A DNA stretch of 64,000 nt from Bradyrhizobium sp. in8p8 (GTDB taxonomy: Bacteria > Pseudomonadota > Alphaproteobacteria > Rhizobiales > Xanthobacteraceae): the NCBI RefSeq assembly GCF_000426845.1, contig NZ_AUGD01000003.1:372001-436000 (forward strand), given 5' to 3'. Under the pieces are notes generated by a model. That model saw only the letters and a program-made list of their open reading frames with translations. It had not been told where the DNA came from and made no database searches. This document shows, piece by piece, positions 10,961 through 22,096 of this stretch (position 1 is the first letter of the stretch; every line of letters begins with the position of its first letter). Both the position numbers and the translations under genes were made by a program.

Positions 10961-11887
10961 TTAACTTCGCGAGCTGCGCACGCTGTGACCAGCCCGAACC
11001 TTGCCGGCCGACAGGCACACCACCTCGGAGATCTGCAGCAGCTGCCGCGCCAGCGGACTGGTCTTGCGCCAGACCATGCCGATGGTGCGCGAGGGTTCTG
11101 GGTCGCGGAAGCGCGCCAGCGAGACCGAGGCCGATCGCGTCTCGACCGGCACCGCCATCTCCGGGATCAACGTGACGCCGATCCCGGCGCTGACCATCTG
11201 CACCAGCGTGGACAGCGAGTTCGCATCCAGCATCTCGCGCGGCGGCGCCGACTGCATGTTGCAGAAGGAGAGCGCCTGGTCGCGGAAGCAGTGCCCCTCC
11301 TCGAGCAGCAGAAGCCGCATCTCGCGCATCATCTCGCGTGACGGCGCCGGTGTGCCTTCATCCGCGCTTGGCCGCACCAGCAGGAATTTCTCCTCGAACA
11401 GGGCGACCTCGGTGAGCGAGGGCTCCGACACCGGCAGCGCCACGATGGCGGTGTCGAGGCGGCCCTCCACCAGCTCCTGGATCAGCCGCGGGGTCATCGT
11501 CTCGCGCACGCGGATGTCGAGCTCCGGGTGCATGCGCGTGAGATTCTTGGTGATGGTCGGCAGCAGATAGGGCGCGATGGTCGGGATCATGCCGATGCGC
11601 AGGCGGCCGGCGAAGCGGTCCTGCGAGGCGCGGGCGAAATCGCCGAGCTCGTCGACCGAGCGCAGAATGTCGCGGACGCGCTGGGCGAGCTCCTCGCCGA
11701 ACCGGGTCAGCGCCACCTGGCGCGCGCTGCGCTCCAGCAGCAGGCCGCCAAGGGTCTCCTCCAGCTCCTTGATCTGCATCGACAGGGCCGGCTGCGAGAT
11801 CGAGCAGGCCTCGGCCGCGCGGCCGAAGTGACCATGACGGGCCAGCGCATCGAAGTACCGGAGCTGGCGTAGCGTCACGTTGAGCAT
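10961..11887 (-). CDS. oxyR: Hydrogen-peroxide-sensing LysR regulator OxyR
   Basis: The 308-residue LysR protein has an N-terminal HTH (RAAEACSISQPALSMQIKELEE). Its effector domain contains the redox pair of OxyR with exact spacing, Cys-x8-Cys, in GHCFRDQALSFC. Peroxide forms a disulfide there and switches the protein to an activator. It diverges from katG over a 115-bp spacer that holds a palindrome, the standard arrangement for OxyR control of catalase-peroxidase and its own gene. Confidence 0.93.
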   Translation of the reverse strand: MLNVTLRQLRYFDALARHGHFGRAAEACSISQPALSMQIKELEETLGGLLLERSARQVALTRFGEELAQRVRDILRSVDELGDFARASQDRFAGRLRIGMIPTIAPYLLPTITKNLTRMHPELDIRVRETMTPRLIQELVEGRLDTAIVALPVSEPSLTEVALFEEKFLLVRPSADEGTPAPSREMMREMRLLLLEEGHCFRDQALSFCNMQSAPPREMLDANSLSTLVQMVSAGIGVTLIPEMAVPVETRSASVSLARFRDPEPSRTIGMVWRKTSPLARQLLQISEVVCLSAGKVRAGHSVRSSRS

Positions 11888-11906
11888 CAGAAAATCCTAT
11901 CGCAGC

Positions 11907-11933
11907 GATCACCAAAGTCAACTTTACCTGATC
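11907..11933. promoter_or_regulatory. Palindrome, probable OxyR operator between oxyR and katG
   Basis: An imperfect dyad is centred on CA at 11919-11920: GATC and ACC flank AAAGT-CA-ACTTT, followed by ACC and GATC. It lies 20-46 bp before the oxyR start and 70-96 bp before katG, a typical place for a LysR-family autoregulatory site. It does not show the full ATAG/CTAT pattern of the E. coli OxyR site. Confidence 0.5.
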
Positions 11934-11948
11934 GAACCTCGCGCTTAG

Positions 11949-14168
<2,220 letters not shown>

Positions 14169-14529: not shown

Positions 14530-17259
14530 TCAGCCTTCTGGCTCGGCGATGATCCGCGCGGCGCAATACTTGTACTCCGGCACCCGCGTGGTCGCGTCGA
14601 GTGCCGAATTCGTCAAGTCGTTGGCCGCGGCCTCGAAATAGGCGAATGGCATCCAGATCACGCCCGCCTGCAAGCCGGTGTCGAGGCGCGGCGCGACACT
14701 GACGCCACCCCGCCGGGTTACGACGCGGACACGTGCGGCATACTCAAGTCCAAGGGAGTCGAAGACGTCGGGTGCGACGTTGACGACCGGTTCCGGCGCG
14801 AGAGCGTCCAGCACTGGCGCGCGACGCGTCATCGAGCCCGTATGCCAGTGTTCAAGGAGCCGGCCGGTTACCAGGGTCAGTGGATAGTCCGCGTCCGGCT
14901 CTTCCGCAGGGCCTCGCCCCTGGAGCGCGACGAGACGGCCGCGCCCGCTTGGGGTCGGAAAGCGTTCGGCGAACAGGCTTCGAGCGTGCCCAAGCGGCAG
15001 CGCGATTGCCTTCTCGCGTTCCAGCATCGACCAGCTCGTGCCCGCCAGCATCGGTACTACGGCCGCCATTTCGTCGAACAGCTCGGAGAGACGATCGTGG
15101 CGCCATGGTGCACCGAGGTGCTTCGCCAGCGTGGAGGTGATCCACCAATCAGGACGTGCATCTCCGGGCGCTGGAACCGCGGGGGCAAGCAGTTGTACGA
15201 CCCTGTCGGTGTTGGTGACCGAGCCGCTCCGCTCGGCGAGCGCCGTGGCCGGCAAGATCACGTCTGCGAAGGCCGCCGTCTCGGTTGGGAAAATGTCCTG
15301 GACGACGAGATGGTCGAGCCGCGCCAGCGCCTCTCGGGTCCGTGTCAGATCGGGATTGGCCATGGCTGGATTGCCTCCGGCCACATAAAGCCCGCGAATC
15401 CTTCCGGCATGCGCGGCTTCCAGAATCTCGACCTGCGTGAGCCCCGGCGACGCCGGCAGATCAGCGCCCCACAATTTCGACAGCCTCGTCCGTGCCTGTG
15501 GATCGCCGACCGACGCATAGCCGGGAAATGACGACGGAATCAGGCCCGCGTCGCAAGATCCCTGAACGTTGTTCTGGCCCCGCAGCGGGTGTAGGCCGGA
15601 GCCGGGCTTGCCGACATGGCCGCAGATCAACGCCAGCGCGATAACGCAGCGGATGTTATCCGCACCGTGCACATGCTGCGACGCGCCCATGCCCCAGAAG
15701 CACATCGCGCGGTCGGCGGTCGCAAACAGACGTGCCGCCGCGGCAATCCGGCCGGCATCGACGCCGGTGAGCCGCTCGGCGAGGCTCGGCGTCATCCCGC
15801 GCACGCGCGCAGCGAGGTCATCGAAGCCGTGGATTCGGTCGCGGACGAAATCACGGTCGTAGAGCCCTTCTGCAATCACCACGTGGAGCATTGCAGACAA
15901 GAGCGCGACGTCTGAGCCCGGTCGGAGGGCGAGGAAATGAGTGGCGTGGCGCGCGAACGGCTGGTGATACGGATCGACCAGGATCAACTTGGTGCCGCGA
16001 TGCACGGCATTCTTCATGATGGTCGCGGCGACCGGATGGTTGACCTCCGGATTTGACCCGACCATCAGCGCGACATCGGCGTGTTCGATCTCCTCGATCG
16101 GTGCCGTCACCGCCGAATAACCGATCGCCTCGCCGAGTGGCGGCACGGACGCGCACAGGCGCGTGCAATGATCGATATGCTGCGTGCCGAGCACCGACCG
16201 CGCCATCTTTTGCAGAATATAGGCGTCCTCATTGGTGGTCTTGGCAGAGCCAAGCACGGCGAGTGCATCGGTGCCGTGCCGTTCGGCAACGGCTCTGAGC
16301 CCCGCCGCAGCGCGATCGAGCGCCTCATCCCACGAAGCCGGACGGAAGAATTCGGTCACCGCGGCGGGGCCGGGCACCGGCATCGCGCGCTTGGGTGCGT
16401 CGTCACGCCGGATCAGCGGCACTTTGAGACGATCGGGATGGTGCAGGAAGTCGAACCCGAAGCGTCCCTTGACGCATAGCCGCCCATGGTTGGCCGGACC
16501 GTCGGCGCCAGCCGCCTGCACGACGCGGTCACATGAAACCGTCAATTCCACGCGACAGCCGACGCTGCAGAACGGACAGATCGTGTCTGCCGTGGTCGCC
16601 GGCACCGACCTCGCGACGGCCGGCTCGGACGAGACCGTTGCCAGCGCGCCGGTCGGACAGACCTGGGCGCACTCCCCGCAGGCCACGCAGGAACTGGCGC
16701 TCAGAGACACGTCGGCATCGAACACGATCCGGGCGCCGTTCCCCCGGCCGCTCATCCCGATGACGCCGTTCACCTGAACATCCTGACATGCTGTGCGGCA
16801 CAGGCCGCAGCGGATGCAAGCGTCGAAGTCGACGACGATCGCTGGATGCGGCGGCACTGTCGGCTCGATCGCCGGCCGATGGCCAAAGCGCGTTGCGCCG
16901 ACACCAATCTGGGCGAGCGCCTCGGCGAGACGAGAGCCGGGCCGCAACGCACCCGCCCCTTGTTCAGACAGCGTCAGCTCCGCGACCACCCTGCGCGCCT
17001 GCAGCGCACGTTCGCTCGACGTGCGCACGACGAGACCTTCGGCGACCTCGCGGCGGCAGGCGGGCGCGAGCTTGTTCTCGCCTTCGATCTCGACCAGGCA
17101 GAAACGACAGGAGGCCTCGGCCTCATAGCCTTCGCGGCCACACACGCAGACGGACGGAATGATGATGCCACAGCGCCGCGCCGCCTCAAGCAAGCTTGTT
17201 CCAACGGAGGCGTCGACCATGTGATCGTCGATGCGCAGCATCACGGTTGGCTCAGTCAT
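14530..17259 (-). CDS. Formate-dehydrogenase-like molybdopterin oxidoreductase in a phosphite operon
   Basis: This 909-residue iron-sulfur molybdoenzyme (start ATG 17259) has an N-terminal [2Fe-2S] domain (C40, C51, C54, C68) and two [4Fe-4S] ferredoxin motifs (C148-C158, C191-C201). The Mo-domain [4Fe-4S] site is C228, C231, C235, C262, and the bis-MGD catalytic core follows. The FDH-type block LRGQNNVQGSCDAG is present. The Mo-ligand Cys is C369 in DHCTRLCASV. Formate dehydrogenases normally have His after this Cys; here it is Ala370. The gene starts 22 bp after ptxA and has no beta or gamma subunit, FdhD or cytochrome nearby. Formate dehydrogenase activity is possible. Because of the operon, I infer a role in phosphite or another reduced phosphorus compound. 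Confidence 0.8.
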   Translation of the reverse strand: MTEPTVMLRIDDHMVDASVGTSLLEAARRCGIIIPSVCVCGREGYEAEASCRFCLVEIEGENKLAPACRREVAEGLVVRTSSERALQARRVVAELTLSEQGAGALRPGSRLAEALAQIGVGATRFGHRPAIEPTVPPHPAIVVDFDACIRCGLCRTACQDVQVNGVIGMSGRGNGARIVFDADVSLSASSCVACGECAQVCPTGALATVSSEPAVARSVPATTADTICPFCSVGCRVELTVSCDRVVQAAGADGPANHGRLCVKGRFGFDFLHHPDRLKVPLIRRDDAPKRAMPVPGPAAVTEFFRPASWDEALDRAAAGLRAVAERHGTDALAVLGSAKTTNEDAYILQKMARSVLGTQHIDHCTRLCASVPPLGEAIGYSAVTAPIEEIEHADVALMVGSNPEVNHPVAATIMKNAVHRGTKLILVDPYHQPFARHATHFLALRPGSDVALLSAMLHVVIAEGLYDRDFVRDRIHGFDDLAARVRGMTPSLAERLTGVDAGRIAAAARLFATADRAMCFWGMGASQHVHGADNIRCVIALALICGHVGKPGSGLHPLRGQNNVQGSCDAGLIPSSFPGYASVGDPQARTRLSKLWGADLPASPGLTQVEILEAAHAGRIRGLYVAGGNPAMANPDLTRTREALARLDHLVVQDIFPTETAAFADVILPATALAERSGSVTNTDRVVQLLAPAVPAPGDARPDWWITSTLAKHLGAPWRHDRLSELFDEMAAVVPMLAGTSWSMLEREKAIALPLGHARSLFAERFPTPSGRGRLVALQGRGPAEEPDADYPLTLVTGRLLEHWHTGSMTRRAPVLDALAPEPVVNVAPDVFDSLGLEYAARVRVVTRRGGVSVAPRLDTGLQAGVIWMPFAYFEAAANDLTNSALDATTRVPEYKYCAARIIAEPEG

Positions 17260-17281: not shown

Positions 17282-18076
17282 TCAATATGCGTAGAGCCGA
17301 TCGCGGACGTCACGTCCGAATTCGGAAGGCGGGCCATCGAAGAAAACCCGCCCCGCCTTGAGGGCAATGATGCGGTTGGCGTAGCGCACTGCCAGGTCGA
17401 CCTGGTGAAGGCTGCACAGCACCGTGATTCCATGCTCCATGGCACTGTGCTGCATGATCTGCAGCACGTTCTCGGCCGATTCCGGATCGAGACTGGAGAT
17501 CGGCTCATCGGCGAGGATGACGTCGCCTTGCTGGGCAAGCGCGCGCGCGAACGCCACCCGTTGCTGCTGGCCTCCCGACAGGCGCTCCGCACGCTGGTAA
17601 GCCTGGTCGAGCAGCCCGACACTGTCGAGACAGGCGAGCGCAAGCTGGCGATCCTCAGCGCTGAAGCGGCGGAGCAACGCCCGCCACAAAGGGGTGGACG
17701 CGAGCCGTGCGGCCAGCACATTGTCGATCGCCTTTAGCCGCTTCACCAGGTTGAATTGCTGGAATACGAAGCCGATCTGGCGGCGGAATTGAATAAGCTG
17801 CCGCCGCGTCAACGTCGTGACCTCGACACCGTCGATGAGAACATGCCCCGAATCGGGTTCGATCAGCCGCGTCAGGCAGCGGAACAGGGTCGACTTGCCG
17901 CAACCGCTCGGACCAAGCAGTACCACGAATTCTCCCTCGCCGACGTCGAAGCTCACCTGATCCAAGATCTGGCGCTCGCCGAAACGCTTACATACGCTGT
18001 CGACGCGGATCGCTCGACGTACCGGTGCGATCGCGACCGGTCTCGCCGAAGCGTCGACCTTCACCAGGGTATTCAT
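17282..18076 (-). CDS. ptxA: Phosphite/phosphonate ABC transporter ATPase (PtxA/PhnC)
   Basis: This 264-residue ATPase has Walker A GPSGCGKST, Q-loop FVFQQFNLV, signature LSGGQQQRVAFARAL and Walker B VILADEP. It closely follows the PhnC family (FRCLTRLIEPDSGHVLIDG, SLDPESAENVLQIM). It powers uptake through the permease whose stop codon lies 12 bp upstream. The assignment to phosphite rather than phosphonate comes from PtxD and the absence of any C-P lyase genes. Confidence 0.88.
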   Translation of the reverse strand: MNTLVKVDASARPVAIAPVRRAIRVDSVCKRFGERQILDQVSFDVGEGEFVVLLGPSGCGKSTLFRCLTRLIEPDSGHVLIDGVEVTTLTRRQLIQFRRQIGFVFQQFNLVKRLKAIDNVLAARLASTPLWRALLRRFSAEDRQLALACLDSVGLLDQAYQRAERLSGGQQQRVAFARALAQQGDVILADEPISSLDPESAENVLQIMQHSAMEHGITVLCSLHQVDLAVRYANRIIALKAGRVFFDGPPSEFGRDVRDRLYAY

Positions 18077-18088
18077 GATGCAGCCTCC

Positions 18089-18958
18089 TCAGGCTTGTTC
18101 GACGCGACGGGCGACCGGCAGCGGCCGGGCGCGGGCACTCTCGGGACTGAGCACCATGCGGCGCAGCCAGCCACTCAGGGTGTCGATGGCAACCACCATA
18201 ATCAGGATCACACCGAGAACCGTGAGCAGCTTCGGGAAATCGAGGAGATCGATCGAGTCTTTCAGGGTCTGGCCGATACCGCCGGCGCCAACGATGCCGA
18301 GCACCGTCGAGGCGCGGACGTTGAATTCCCAGATGTAGAGGATCACCGCGACGATGTTCGGAAACACGTCGGGAAGGAGCGCATATCGGAACGTCTTGAC
18401 CGGTCCAGCGCCCGTGAGCTTGATGGCCTCGATCGGTCCGGGATCAGCGGGCTCGATGACTTCGGTCAGCAGCTTGCCTAGCGCACCCGTCATATTGAAC
18501 GCGATGGCGAGGACGCCGGTGAACGGACCGAAACCCACGGCAGCGACAAAGATCAAGGCGAATACCAGGATTTCGGTGCCACGGAGCAGCGAAAACACGG
18601 CGCGAACCGCGCGGTAGACGACAGGATGCGGTGTCGTGTTGCGGGCCGCGAGCGGCGCAAGCGCGCCGGCCACGACCAATGCCAAGACCGTTCCGACGGT
18701 CGCCATCGCAAGCGTCTGGAATGCATCACGCAGAATGCGGTCGATCTCGCTGAAGTCGGGAGGAAACATCTGGCCGAACCAGCCGGCAACCTTCGGCAGG
18801 CCGGTGATCAGCCTTGTGATATCGATGTCGACCGACATGAACGTCGCCGCGAGAAAGACAAGGAGCAACGTGAAACCCGCGGCGCGCGCCAAGCGCGATA
18901 CGACGAACGGCGACGGGTGCGGCTCGATATATCGCCGGCCCGCCGTGTAGGAGGTCAT
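18089..18958 (-). CDS. ptxC: Phosphite/phosphonate ABC transporter permease (PtxC/PhnE)
   Basis: From the ATG at 18958 (preceded by GTGAGG) the protein is 289 residues with about six membrane segments, the first being AAGFTLLLVFLAATFM. The PhnE-type EAA loop reads EAIKLTGAGPVKTFRYALLP, followed by the family's conserved RASTVLGIVGAGGIG. An open frame extending upstream to 19114 would overlap the binding-protein gene and is not used. It would form the inner-membrane channel with the adjacent ATPase and binding protein. Confidence 0.88.
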   Translation of the reverse strand: MTSYTAGRRYIEPHPSPFVVSRLARAAGFTLLLVFLAATFMSVDIDITRLITGLPKVAGWFGQMFPPDFSEIDRILRDAFQTLAMATVGTVLALVVAGALAPLAARNTTPHPVVYRAVRAVFSLLRGTEILVFALIFVAAVGFGPFTGVLAIAFNMTGALGKLLTEVIEPADPGPIEAIKLTGAGPVKTFRYALLPDVFPNIVAVILYIWEFNVRASTVLGIVGAGGIGQTLKDSIDLLDFPKLLTVLGVILIMVVAIDTLSGWLRRMVLSPESARARPLPVARRVEQA

Positions 18959-19025: not shown

Positions 19026-19943
<918 letters not shown>

Positions 19944-19965: not shown

Positions 19966-20000
19966 ATTAATTAGCAAAGTCGATGACAAGAGAATGACAT
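19966..20000 (-). promoter_or_regulatory. Pho box and -10 element of the ptxBCA operon
   Basis: On the operon strand, ATGTCAT at 20000-19994 and TTGTCAT at 19989-19983 are separated by exactly four bases. This is the layout of the PhoB box (two CTGTCAT heptamers 4 bp apart). Nine bases further, TAATTA at 19973-19968 fits a -10 element, so the box stands in for the -35. I infer PhoB activation under phosphate starvation. Confidence 0.75.
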
Positions 20001-20192: not shown

Positions 20193-21230
20193 ATGCACGC
20201 GCCTTCTCCGATCCGCACCGTCCTGATCACCGGAATGGTTCACGATGACACCCGCAATCTGCTGGCGTCGAGATTCGATCTGATCTGCAACGACCGGCCT
20301 GAGCCATGGACCCGTCAGGAGATCAGCGCCCGGCTGCGATCGGCCGACGCCATGCTGGCCTTCATGACCGACACGATCGATGCCGAATTGCTCGATGCCG
20401 CGCCGAACCTGAGGATCGTGGCCGGCGCGCTGAAGGGATTCGATAATTTCGATGTCGAGGCCTGCACACGATGCGGCGTCTGGCTGGCGATCGTCCCCAA
20501 TCACCTGACCGCGCCGAGTGCGGAGCTTGCCGTCGGCCTCGCCATCGGTCTCGTCCGCAAAGTCGCCGCGGGCGACCGGCTGATCCGAACCGGACATTTC
20601 TCCGGCTGGCGGCCGATCTTGTACGGCGGCACGCTCACCGGCGCGACCATCGGAATCGTGGGCATGGGGCTGGTCGGCCGCGCAATAGCGCAGCGCTTGT
20701 CAGGATTTGATGCAACAATCCTCTACGCTGACGCGACGCCTCTGACGGTCACGGAAGAACGAAGGCTCGGCTGCACTTTTGCTCCGCTCGACGTCATGGT
20801 CAGTCGCTCCGACATCGTGATGCTTGCATTGCCTCTGACGCCGGCCACGCATCATCTGATCGATACGTCCCGTCTCGCCACCTTCAAGCGCGGCGCTTAT
20901 CTGGTGAATATTGCGCGCGGGTCTCTCGTTTGCGAGCGGGACGTCGCAGAGGCGCTGAAGACAGGCACGCTCGGAGGCTACGCGGCGGACGTCTTCGAGC
21001 TTGAGGACTGGGCGATCCCGGACCGGCCGCGCGAGATCGACCCCGCGCTGCTAGGGCTGACGGACCTCACTTTGTTCACGCCGCACCTTGGTTCGGCGGT
21101 AGCCGATGTGCGTCGCGCCATCGAGTTAGAGGCCGCGCTCAACATCATCGAACTCGCCGACGGCAGAACGCCGCGCGGCGCCATCAATCGTCCGGCGAGG
21201 CGAGAGTTCACGATGGTGGAGCCATGCTAA
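20193..21230 (+). CDS. ptxD: Phosphite dehydrogenase (NAD)
   Basis: PtxD oxidises phosphite to phosphate with NAD. The 345-residue protein matches Pseudomonas stutzeri PtxD as I recall it through long blocks (GALKGFDNFDVEACT, GGYAADVFELEDWA). Its active-site residues are all present: M58, K81, W139, Y144, R242, E271 and H298 (PtxD M53, K76, W134, Y139, R237, E266, H292). The Rossmann loop is GIVGMGLVG and D180 after the second strand suggests NAD preference. The ATG at 20193 is preferred to 20139. It overlaps ptxE by 7 bp and diverges from the transporter operon. Confidence 0.92.
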   Translation: MHAPSPIRTVLITGMVHDDTRNLLASRFDLICNDRPEPWTRQEISARLRSADAMLAFMTDTIDAELLDAAPNLRIVAGALKGFDNFDVEACTRCGVWLAIVPNHLTAPSAELAVGLAIGLVRKVAAGDRLIRTGHFSGWRPILYGGTLTGATIGIVGMGLVGRAIAQRLSGFDATILYADATPLTVTEERRLGCTFAPLDVMVSRSDIVMLALPLTPATHHLIDTSRLATFKRGAYLVNIARGSLVCERDVAEALKTGTLGGYAADVFELEDWAIPDRPREIDPALLGLTDLTLFTPHLGSAVADVRRAIELEAALNIIELADGRTPRGAINRPARREFTMVEPC

Positions 21231-22096
21231 ACCTTTCCCAGGTCCAATCGTTCCTTGCGGTCGTCGACGAGGGCAGCTTCCAGACCGCGGCAGAACGGCT
21301 CGACTATTCGCAGCCGACGATCTCGTTGCAGGTCCGCAAGCTTGAAGAATTCCTTGGCGTGCAGCTGATCGCACGCAACAAATCGCGCTCGATTCTAACC
21401 CGCGATGGCGAGATGTTCCTGCCGCATGCGCGGGCACTCGTCGCTTCAGCAGGCCGCGCACGCGATCGCCTGCGGCAACGGCGGTTCACCGTGGCCGCGA
21501 GCAGCAACATCGGCGTGTATCTGGCCCCGCGCCTGCTGACCGGATTCAACACGGTACACGCCGACGATGCCGAGATTGCACTGAAGATCGGCACCAATCG
21601 AGAGACCATCGATTCGCTGCTTAGCGGCGAGGCAGACGTGGCGTTGACTGAATGGTCGGAGCCGCACGGCAACGTGCGTTGGCACGCCTGGCGACGCGAG
21701 AAGCTCGTCGTTATTGTCAGTCCCGATCATCCGCTCGCGAGCGAACGTCGGGTGCCAAGGCAGAGACTGCTGGACTTTCCAATGCTGGGCGGAGAGACCG
21801 GTACCGGCACAGGTCGGATCATCCGCGACTTCCTCGGAAAGGACGTCGACCGACTGATGAAGGGGATGCAGCTCGGTAGCACCGCTGCCGTCAAGGAGGC
21901 CGTGAAGGCCAACCTCGGCATTTCGATCGTCCTCGCCTATTCCGTCTCCGAGGATGTCGCGTTCGGCTCGCTCGTCAGCATCGAGCTCGAGGATGCCGAA
22001 TTCTACAAGAGTCTGCAGGTAGGTCTACAGGCGGAAGTTCCCGGGACATCGCTCGCGCATGCCTTCGTCGCCTTCCTGTCGAGCCAGACGACATGA
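21224..22096 (+). CDS. ptxE: LysR-family regulator next to ptxD (PtxE-like)
   Basis: This 290-residue LysR protein has its HTH at residues about 18-42 (FQTAAERLDYSQPTISLQVRKLEEF) and a periplasmic-binding-protein-like effector domain. Its start overlaps the ptxD stop by 7 bp, so the two are translated together. The known ptxABCDE locus also ends in a LysR gene, ptxE. It probably senses phosphite, or the state of its metabolism, and acts at the palindrome before ptxD; that is inference. Confidence 0.85.
   Translation: MLNLSQVQSFLAVVDEGSFQTAAERLDYSQPTISLQVRKLEEFLGVQLIARNKSRSILTRDGEMFLPHARALVASAGRARDRLRQRRFTVAASSNIGVYLAPRLLTGFNTVHADDAEIALKIGTNRETIDSLLSGEADVALTEWSEPHGNVRWHAWRREKLVVIVSPDHPLASERRVPRQRLLDFPMLGGETGTGTGRIIRDFLGKDVDRLMKGMQLGSTAAVKEAVKANLGISIVLAYSVSEDVAFGSLVSIELEDAEFYKSLQVGLQAEVPGTSLAHAFVAFLSSQTT

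Follow-up and report, generated by a model that had tools for sequence, protein, structure and literature searches.

We find that a gene for a formate dehydrogenase (FDH)-like catalytic (alpha) subunit in Bradyrhizobium sp. in8p8 lies directly behind genes for a hypophosphite-type transporter, and that on balance it probably encodes the catalytic subunit of a molybdenum- or tungsten-dependent hypophosphite dehydrogenase that is akin to the NAD-linked FDHs of the Methylorubrum type and acts in the pathway ahead of the phosphite dehydrogenase PtxD. This reading comes from sequence comparisons across the window (the whole stretch of 64,000 nucleotides analysed here) and related genomes. A preliminary description of this DNA had proposed that an FDH-like enzyme was recruited to reduced phosphorus; the core of that idea gains support from the linkage of the gene to HtxB-like transporter genes in six of six distinct loci, but the transporter is of the htx type and not, as had been supposed, of the phosphite type.

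The FDH-like gene (14530..17259, minus strand, running from 17259 down to 14530) appears in the list of open reading frames of the window as a frame of 909 codons, in agreement with the 909-residue protein of the preliminary description; the 22-bp gap reported there is also present, the preceding ATPase gene ending at 17282. A domain search divided the protein into an N-terminal part with 2Fe-2S and 4Fe-4S clusters, a molybdopterin domain and a C-terminal dinucleotide domain. Its score against the NCBIfam FDH-alpha model, 679 bits, is just above the cut-off of 666, and its nearest solved structures, matched at 948 bits over nearly the full length, are those of a tungsten formate dehydrogenase alpha subunit (7vw6/7e5z). 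A structure predicted from a seven-row alignment was too poor to draw on, with a mean pLDDT of 56 and residues 364-386 below 50. The genome also contains, besides the FDH-like gene on contig C3, a genuine His-bearing FDH (L084) on contig C13. Comparison of the window with BTAi1, a second genome of the genus that carries the gene as an intact frame of 909 codons, shows purifying selection on the gene (dN 0.12, dS 0.94, dN/dS about 0.12).

A species-wide scan with six exact peptides, in which each of 84,980 species was represented by a single genome, returned 114 relatives, the best 80 of which were examined. PtxB- and PtxC-like neighbours were found for five of these 80, exactly the five that are at least 59% identical to the window protein, some of the flanks being short. 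Two of the five, from BTAi1 (L003) and from an Afipia bin (L004), are the same DNA, and because L004 matches BTAi1 at 99.98% identity across 10.7 kb it was not counted as distinct. A further member, G1061 (54% identity), was located in Roseibium family genomes by the enzyme sequence alone; its locus has the predicted layout, genes for HtxB, permease, ATPase, beta and alpha and, running divergently from these, ptxD and a LysR gene, and its alpha subunit has the His-less motif described below. The six distinct clade loci are those of the window, BTAi1, Roseibium aestuarii (L005), a Bradyrhizobium bin (L014), a Beijerinckiaceae bin (L035) and G1061, and all six of these members adjoin HtxB-like transporter genes, rather than being scattered with no link to such genes.

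At strict thresholds, near relatives of the enzyme proved rare among whole genomes, being found in 3 of 265 genomes of the genus, in 2 of 397 of the order (the window genome and one with His), in 7 of 385 of the class (the window genome and six with His), in 2 of 87 of the family of the Roseibium genome and in 2 of 204 of the family of L035 (L035 itself and one with His). HtxB-like genes are present in 4 of 265 genomes of the genus (the three enzyme carriers plus G020, with a protein of 44% identity) and, in the class, in 4 of 372 (the window genome and three at 43-45% identity). Plasmid records contained no relative of the enzyme at 60% identity or above (234 matches, the best at 52%), and the three plasmid matches checked for the motif all had His. 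In two quick trees, both built without the motif columns and both to be read with a long-branch warning, the clade forms one side of a branch with an SH-aLRT of 100, beside the Methylorubrum-type rows.

What sets the clade apart is its active site. The metal ligand Cys369 and the block LRGQNNVQG, both named in the preliminary description, are present, and C369 is kept in seven of seven clade rows. The His that directly follows the ligand in FDHs (RcFDH His387) is indeed missing, as had been claimed, but not through a single replacement by Ala370: a two-residue deletion, which changes the loop from CHASSVAAL to C--ASVPPL, removes the His column. In the alignment this column is a gap in all seven clade rows (six distinct) and His in 62 of the 62 other FDH-family rows. 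From the metal-binding Cys onward the motif of the clade is C-[AS]-S-[VI]-P-P-L, against CHASSVAAL, or close to it, in the Methylorubrum-type rows; 23 columns separate five clade rows from 41 Methylorubrum-type rows, and two of the 23 are the deleted columns. R560 is present in all seven clade rows and in all 62 others, and since the spacing from R560 to V565 equals that from Arg587 to Val592 in RcFDH, as given in the consulted part of PMC7171172, it can be read as the counterpart of the catalytic Arg587. R537, the Arg of a DN-x-R motif, was ruled out as the catalytic Arg, being not conserved in distant rows. The 16 cluster cysteines checked, which we attribute to the 2Fe-2S and 4Fe-4S clusters typical of the family, are kept in every clade row. 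In nine distant FDH-family rows elsewhere in the alignment (L039-L044, L049, L050, L055, L072) the metal-ligand position is occupied by an in-frame stop, which is probably selenocysteine.

Upstream of the alpha gene, on the same strand, lie genes for a PhnC/HtxD-type ABC transporter ATPase (17282..18076; TIGR02315, 308 bits, cut-off 266), a PhnE/HtxC-type permease (18089..18958; TIGR01097, 273 bits, cut-off 217), which could also start further upstream, at a GTG at 19114, and HtxB, a hypophosphite-type binding protein (19026..19913). The letters HtxD and HtxC for the ATPase and the permease are ones that we presume. Divergent from htxB, on the plus strand, are ptxD (20193..21230), whose product scores 359 bits to 6ih2, compared with at most 195 bits for non-PtxD 2-hydroxyacid dehydrogenases among the matches listed, and a gene for a LysR-type regulator (21224..22096) that is PtxE-like by position and has a homologue beside ptxD in L005, L014 and G1061. 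In the window and in these three loci, four of the six, ptxD is beside the enzyme. The earlier assignment of the five other genes to ptxABCDE is thus borne out by similarity for ptxD and the LysR gene and fails for the binding protein, which scores 426 bits to HtxB (5me4) and 81 to PtxB (5o2j). Directly downstream of the operon, at 10961-14168 of the window, are katG, for a catalase-peroxidase, and a divergent gene for an OxyR-like regulator.

The evidence for Pho control of the operon is weak. A Pho-box-like site on the minus strand (19983..20000), 69 bp before htxB, has two mismatches to what we take to be the consensus. It is the only site in the window with two mismatches or fewer, yet 17 of 100 shuffles of the window contain one; when the 279-bp intergenic stretch was shuffled instead, 1000 times, no such site arose. 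A similar site is present in L005, and those in L014, L035 and G1061 are no better than in shuffles.

The type of the binding protein bears directly on the substrate. According to the portion of PMC5700983 consulted, the HtxB pocket features W52, N128, F158 and an R178-D206 ion pair, and HtxB binds hypophosphite with a Kd of 0.56 uM and phosphite with one above 10 mM. The window protein keeps W52, N128, F158, R178 and D206, the positions having been placed by counting on the alignment to HtxB, and the same five residues are found in BTAi1, L005, L014 and G1061 (438 bits to HtxB and 86 to PtxB, with residues read off the printed sequence). The binding protein of L035 scores 255 bits to HtxB and 78 to PtxB, has S and H at two pocket positions, and perhaps belongs to the 'hybrid' class of which PMC5700983 speaks in the same portion. 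Phosphite, the main substrate in our starting idea, was demoted when the binding protein turned out to be of the HtxB type, and since the transporter is htx-type rather than phosphite-type, hypophosphite is favoured among the substrates that the preliminary description had listed. In the examined stretches around six more HtxB-like genes (L121, L147, L148 and L158-L160; 42-50% identity), HtxA, the FDH-like enzyme and PtxD all lacked a match, so a distant HtxB-like gene alone is not a sign of hypophosphite use. The HtxB-like proteins of L121 and L158 (about 42-47% identity) lie near radical-SAM- or metallophosphoesterase-type genes, the L121 neighbours being taken from annotation and those of L158 judged from N-terminal sequence alone.

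The distribution of the dioxygenase HtxA indicates what the FDH-like gene may stand in for. The best HtxA matches in the window and L014 genomes are at 26% identity, that in the window genome (E 3e-9) being at the general PhyH-like level, and the Roseibium aestuarii genome has none at E 0.001; these three genomes would therefore otherwise lack a known enzyme for step one, the oxidation of hypophosphite, though ptxD is present. Among seven loci with the strict HtxB pocket, five have the FDH-like gene and two, the plasmids L117 and L118, have HtxA in the operon, just before htxB, with ptxD and the LysR gene after the transporter. (The HtxA of these plasmid operons is annotated as phytanoyl-CoA dioxygenase family, and its name is given by position.) An Acinetobacter plasmid carries an eighth locus, also with HtxA, whose binding protein is cut by the record start and was left unscored.

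Two loci fit this pattern less simply, HtxA being present in both BTAi1 and L035, so that it is not always replaced by the FDH-like enzyme. In BTAi1, HtxA and an HtxB-like set that goes with it lie some 11 kb away from the enzyme; ptxD was not found in that genome (best match about 30%). L035 has an HtxA homologue about 1.5 kb from alpha and no ptxD at the locus. Both loci can be read in two ways: either an O2-dependent and an O2-independent enzyme share step one, or HtxA carries out step one and the FDH-like enzyme step two. We prefer the former, since under the latter no enzyme for step one would be known in the window, L014 and Roseibium genomes. The argument that the enzyme must replace PtxD in BTAi1, where ptxD is missing, is weakened by the state of the locus, which looks partly broken: the htxB beside the enzyme is 5'-truncated, with about 60 residues missing, sulfonate-type transporter genes adjoin, and a gene for an IS66 transposase lies close by. 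Besides the HtxB-type locus, a separate one with PtxB-type residues and ptxD exists in each of the L035 and L014 genomes (L145 and L146, respectively). A gene for a MobA/MobL-type mobilisation protein lies downstream of the HtxA homologue, at L035 13708-16704 (L144:10709-13705), and the L035 copy may therefore be on a mobile element.

These loci are also where an oxidation of phosphite to phosphate by the FDH-like enzyme, as a metal-dependent counterpart of PtxD or as the catalyst of both steps, finds its support, and we consider it unlikely. A step-two role is allowed by BTAi1 and by the L035 locus, and HtxB type does not exclude phosphite as a substrate, since E. coli with HtxBCDE grew on 1 mM phosphite, according to the text consulted of PMC5700983. 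However, the L035 genome has ptxD elsewhere, the BTAi1 locus is the one that looks damaged, and in four of the six loci ptxD already adjoins the enzyme; step one would then be without a known enzyme in three of those genomes (G1061 was checked over 26 kb only).

As the preliminary description stated, no gene for a beta subunit or for FdhD was found near the FDH-like gene in the window. FdhD matches in its own genome are on contigs C2 and C13, the window being on C3, and beta matches are on C13, beside the ordinary His-bearing FDH and comprising the nearest homologue, with a further homologue on C10. In L005, L014, L035 and G1061 (four of the six loci) a NuoF-type beta gene directly precedes alpha, the arrangement of an NAD-linked FDH complex; the window and BTAi1 lack it. 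There is little likelihood that the protein is a hypophosphite-tolerant formate dehydrogenase, made together with the importer to keep formate oxidation going. The pass with the FDH-alpha model agrees with that idea, as do excerpts reporting that hypophosphite inhibits the formate-producing PflB (PMC12571268) and that the H387M variant of RcFDH is active (PMC9804402), from which it follows that loss of the His need not abolish formate oxidation. Against it, the clade has lost the His kept in the 62 other rows, and the consulted part of PMC7171172 gives His and Arg to all FDHs; the genome of the window has a genuine His-bearing FDH elsewhere; and the linkage is to import genes, for which a step-one enzyme would then be missing. 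That the window-strain alpha is a non-functional remnant left after loss of beta is very improbable, for although no beta lies beside alpha in the window or BTAi1 and the BTAi1 htxB is truncated, the two 909-codon frames are intact with a dN/dS near 0.12, all checked cluster cysteines are kept and the rest of the window operon is intact.

For a hypophosphite dehydrogenase we propose the following course. HtxB, the permease and the ATPase would import hypophosphite, as homology and the pocket residues suggest; a bis-MGD metal centre on Cys369 would take a hydride from the P-H bond, Arg560 would hold the oxyanion, and the short His-less Cys loop may reshape the pocket for a tetrahedral substrate. 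Electrons would travel along the Fe-S chain to NAD+ through the NuoF-type beta where it is encoded, and through some other partner in the window strain, and PtxD, judged by its similarity, would convert the phosphite product to phosphate. The FDH-like enzyme would in this way stand in for HtxA. With the hypophosphite/phosphite couple at -740 mV, the value given in the excerpts of PMC5700983, reduction of NAD+ would be strongly downhill. In the parts consulted, PMC12571268 treats hypophosphite as a well-established analogue of formate, and PMC11066067 ascribes to HtxA an activity on formate of comparable rate, which makes an FDH a plausible starting point. A broader proposition, in which our confidence is evenly divided, is that a Mo/W bis-MGD clade exchanged the C-H of formate for the P-H of hypophosphite as the bond it oxidises, with its second-sphere His deleted, and takes the place of HtxA, in an O2-independent and NAD-reducing manner, in alphaproteobacterial htx-type operons.

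The locus can be compared with three known systems. Like the alpha subunit of the Methylorubrum-type NAD-linked W/Mo FDH (7vw6, 7e5z), the protein has full-length similarity, the cluster cysteines, the Cys ligand and the Arg in RGQNNVQG, and in four of the six clade loci it shares the NuoF-type beta directly before alpha; unlike that enzyme, the clade is without the catalytic His and one neighbour, has PP in the following loop and adjoins hypophosphite import genes, and the window locus is without beta. With the htxA-htxBCD-ptxD-LysR operon of L117 and L118 the window shares an HtxB with the same five residues, the permease, the ATPase, ptxD and LysR, but it has the FDH-like gene instead of HtxA, and ptxD and LysR are divergent rather than in line. 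The ptxABCDE phosphite operon likewise has ptxD, a LysR gene and a homologous ABC transporter, whereas the binding protein of the window is HtxB-type and not PtxB. The gene product is an FDH-family protein that lacks the His of its family and that, in a known kind of operon, appears to replace the usual enzyme. In the open-access literature searched, no molybdenum or FDH-like enzyme was named for hypophosphite; an earlier claim may be contained in a thesis on Xanthobacter flavus WM2814, a strain in which a second hypophosphite pathway was reportedly suspected. The thesis (Wilson, a PhD thesis of 2006) is among the works on hypophosphite use cited in the consulted portion of PMC5700983.

If our reading is right, the clade would provide a molybdenum or tungsten enzyme with phosphorus(I) as its substrate, and a route for hypophosphite independent of both O2 and 2-oxoglutarate, a point of relevance to the use of phosphorus under anaerobic conditions. 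The FDH-like enzyme could also help to explain genomes with htxB and without htxA: a 2024 survey, in the part of it consulted, lists htxB in four genomes and htxA in two of them (PMC11066067). For FDHs the clade is a natural His-deletion variant with which the role of that residue may be probed, and the motif C-[AS]-S-[VI]-P-P-L near htxB offers a simple genetic marker.
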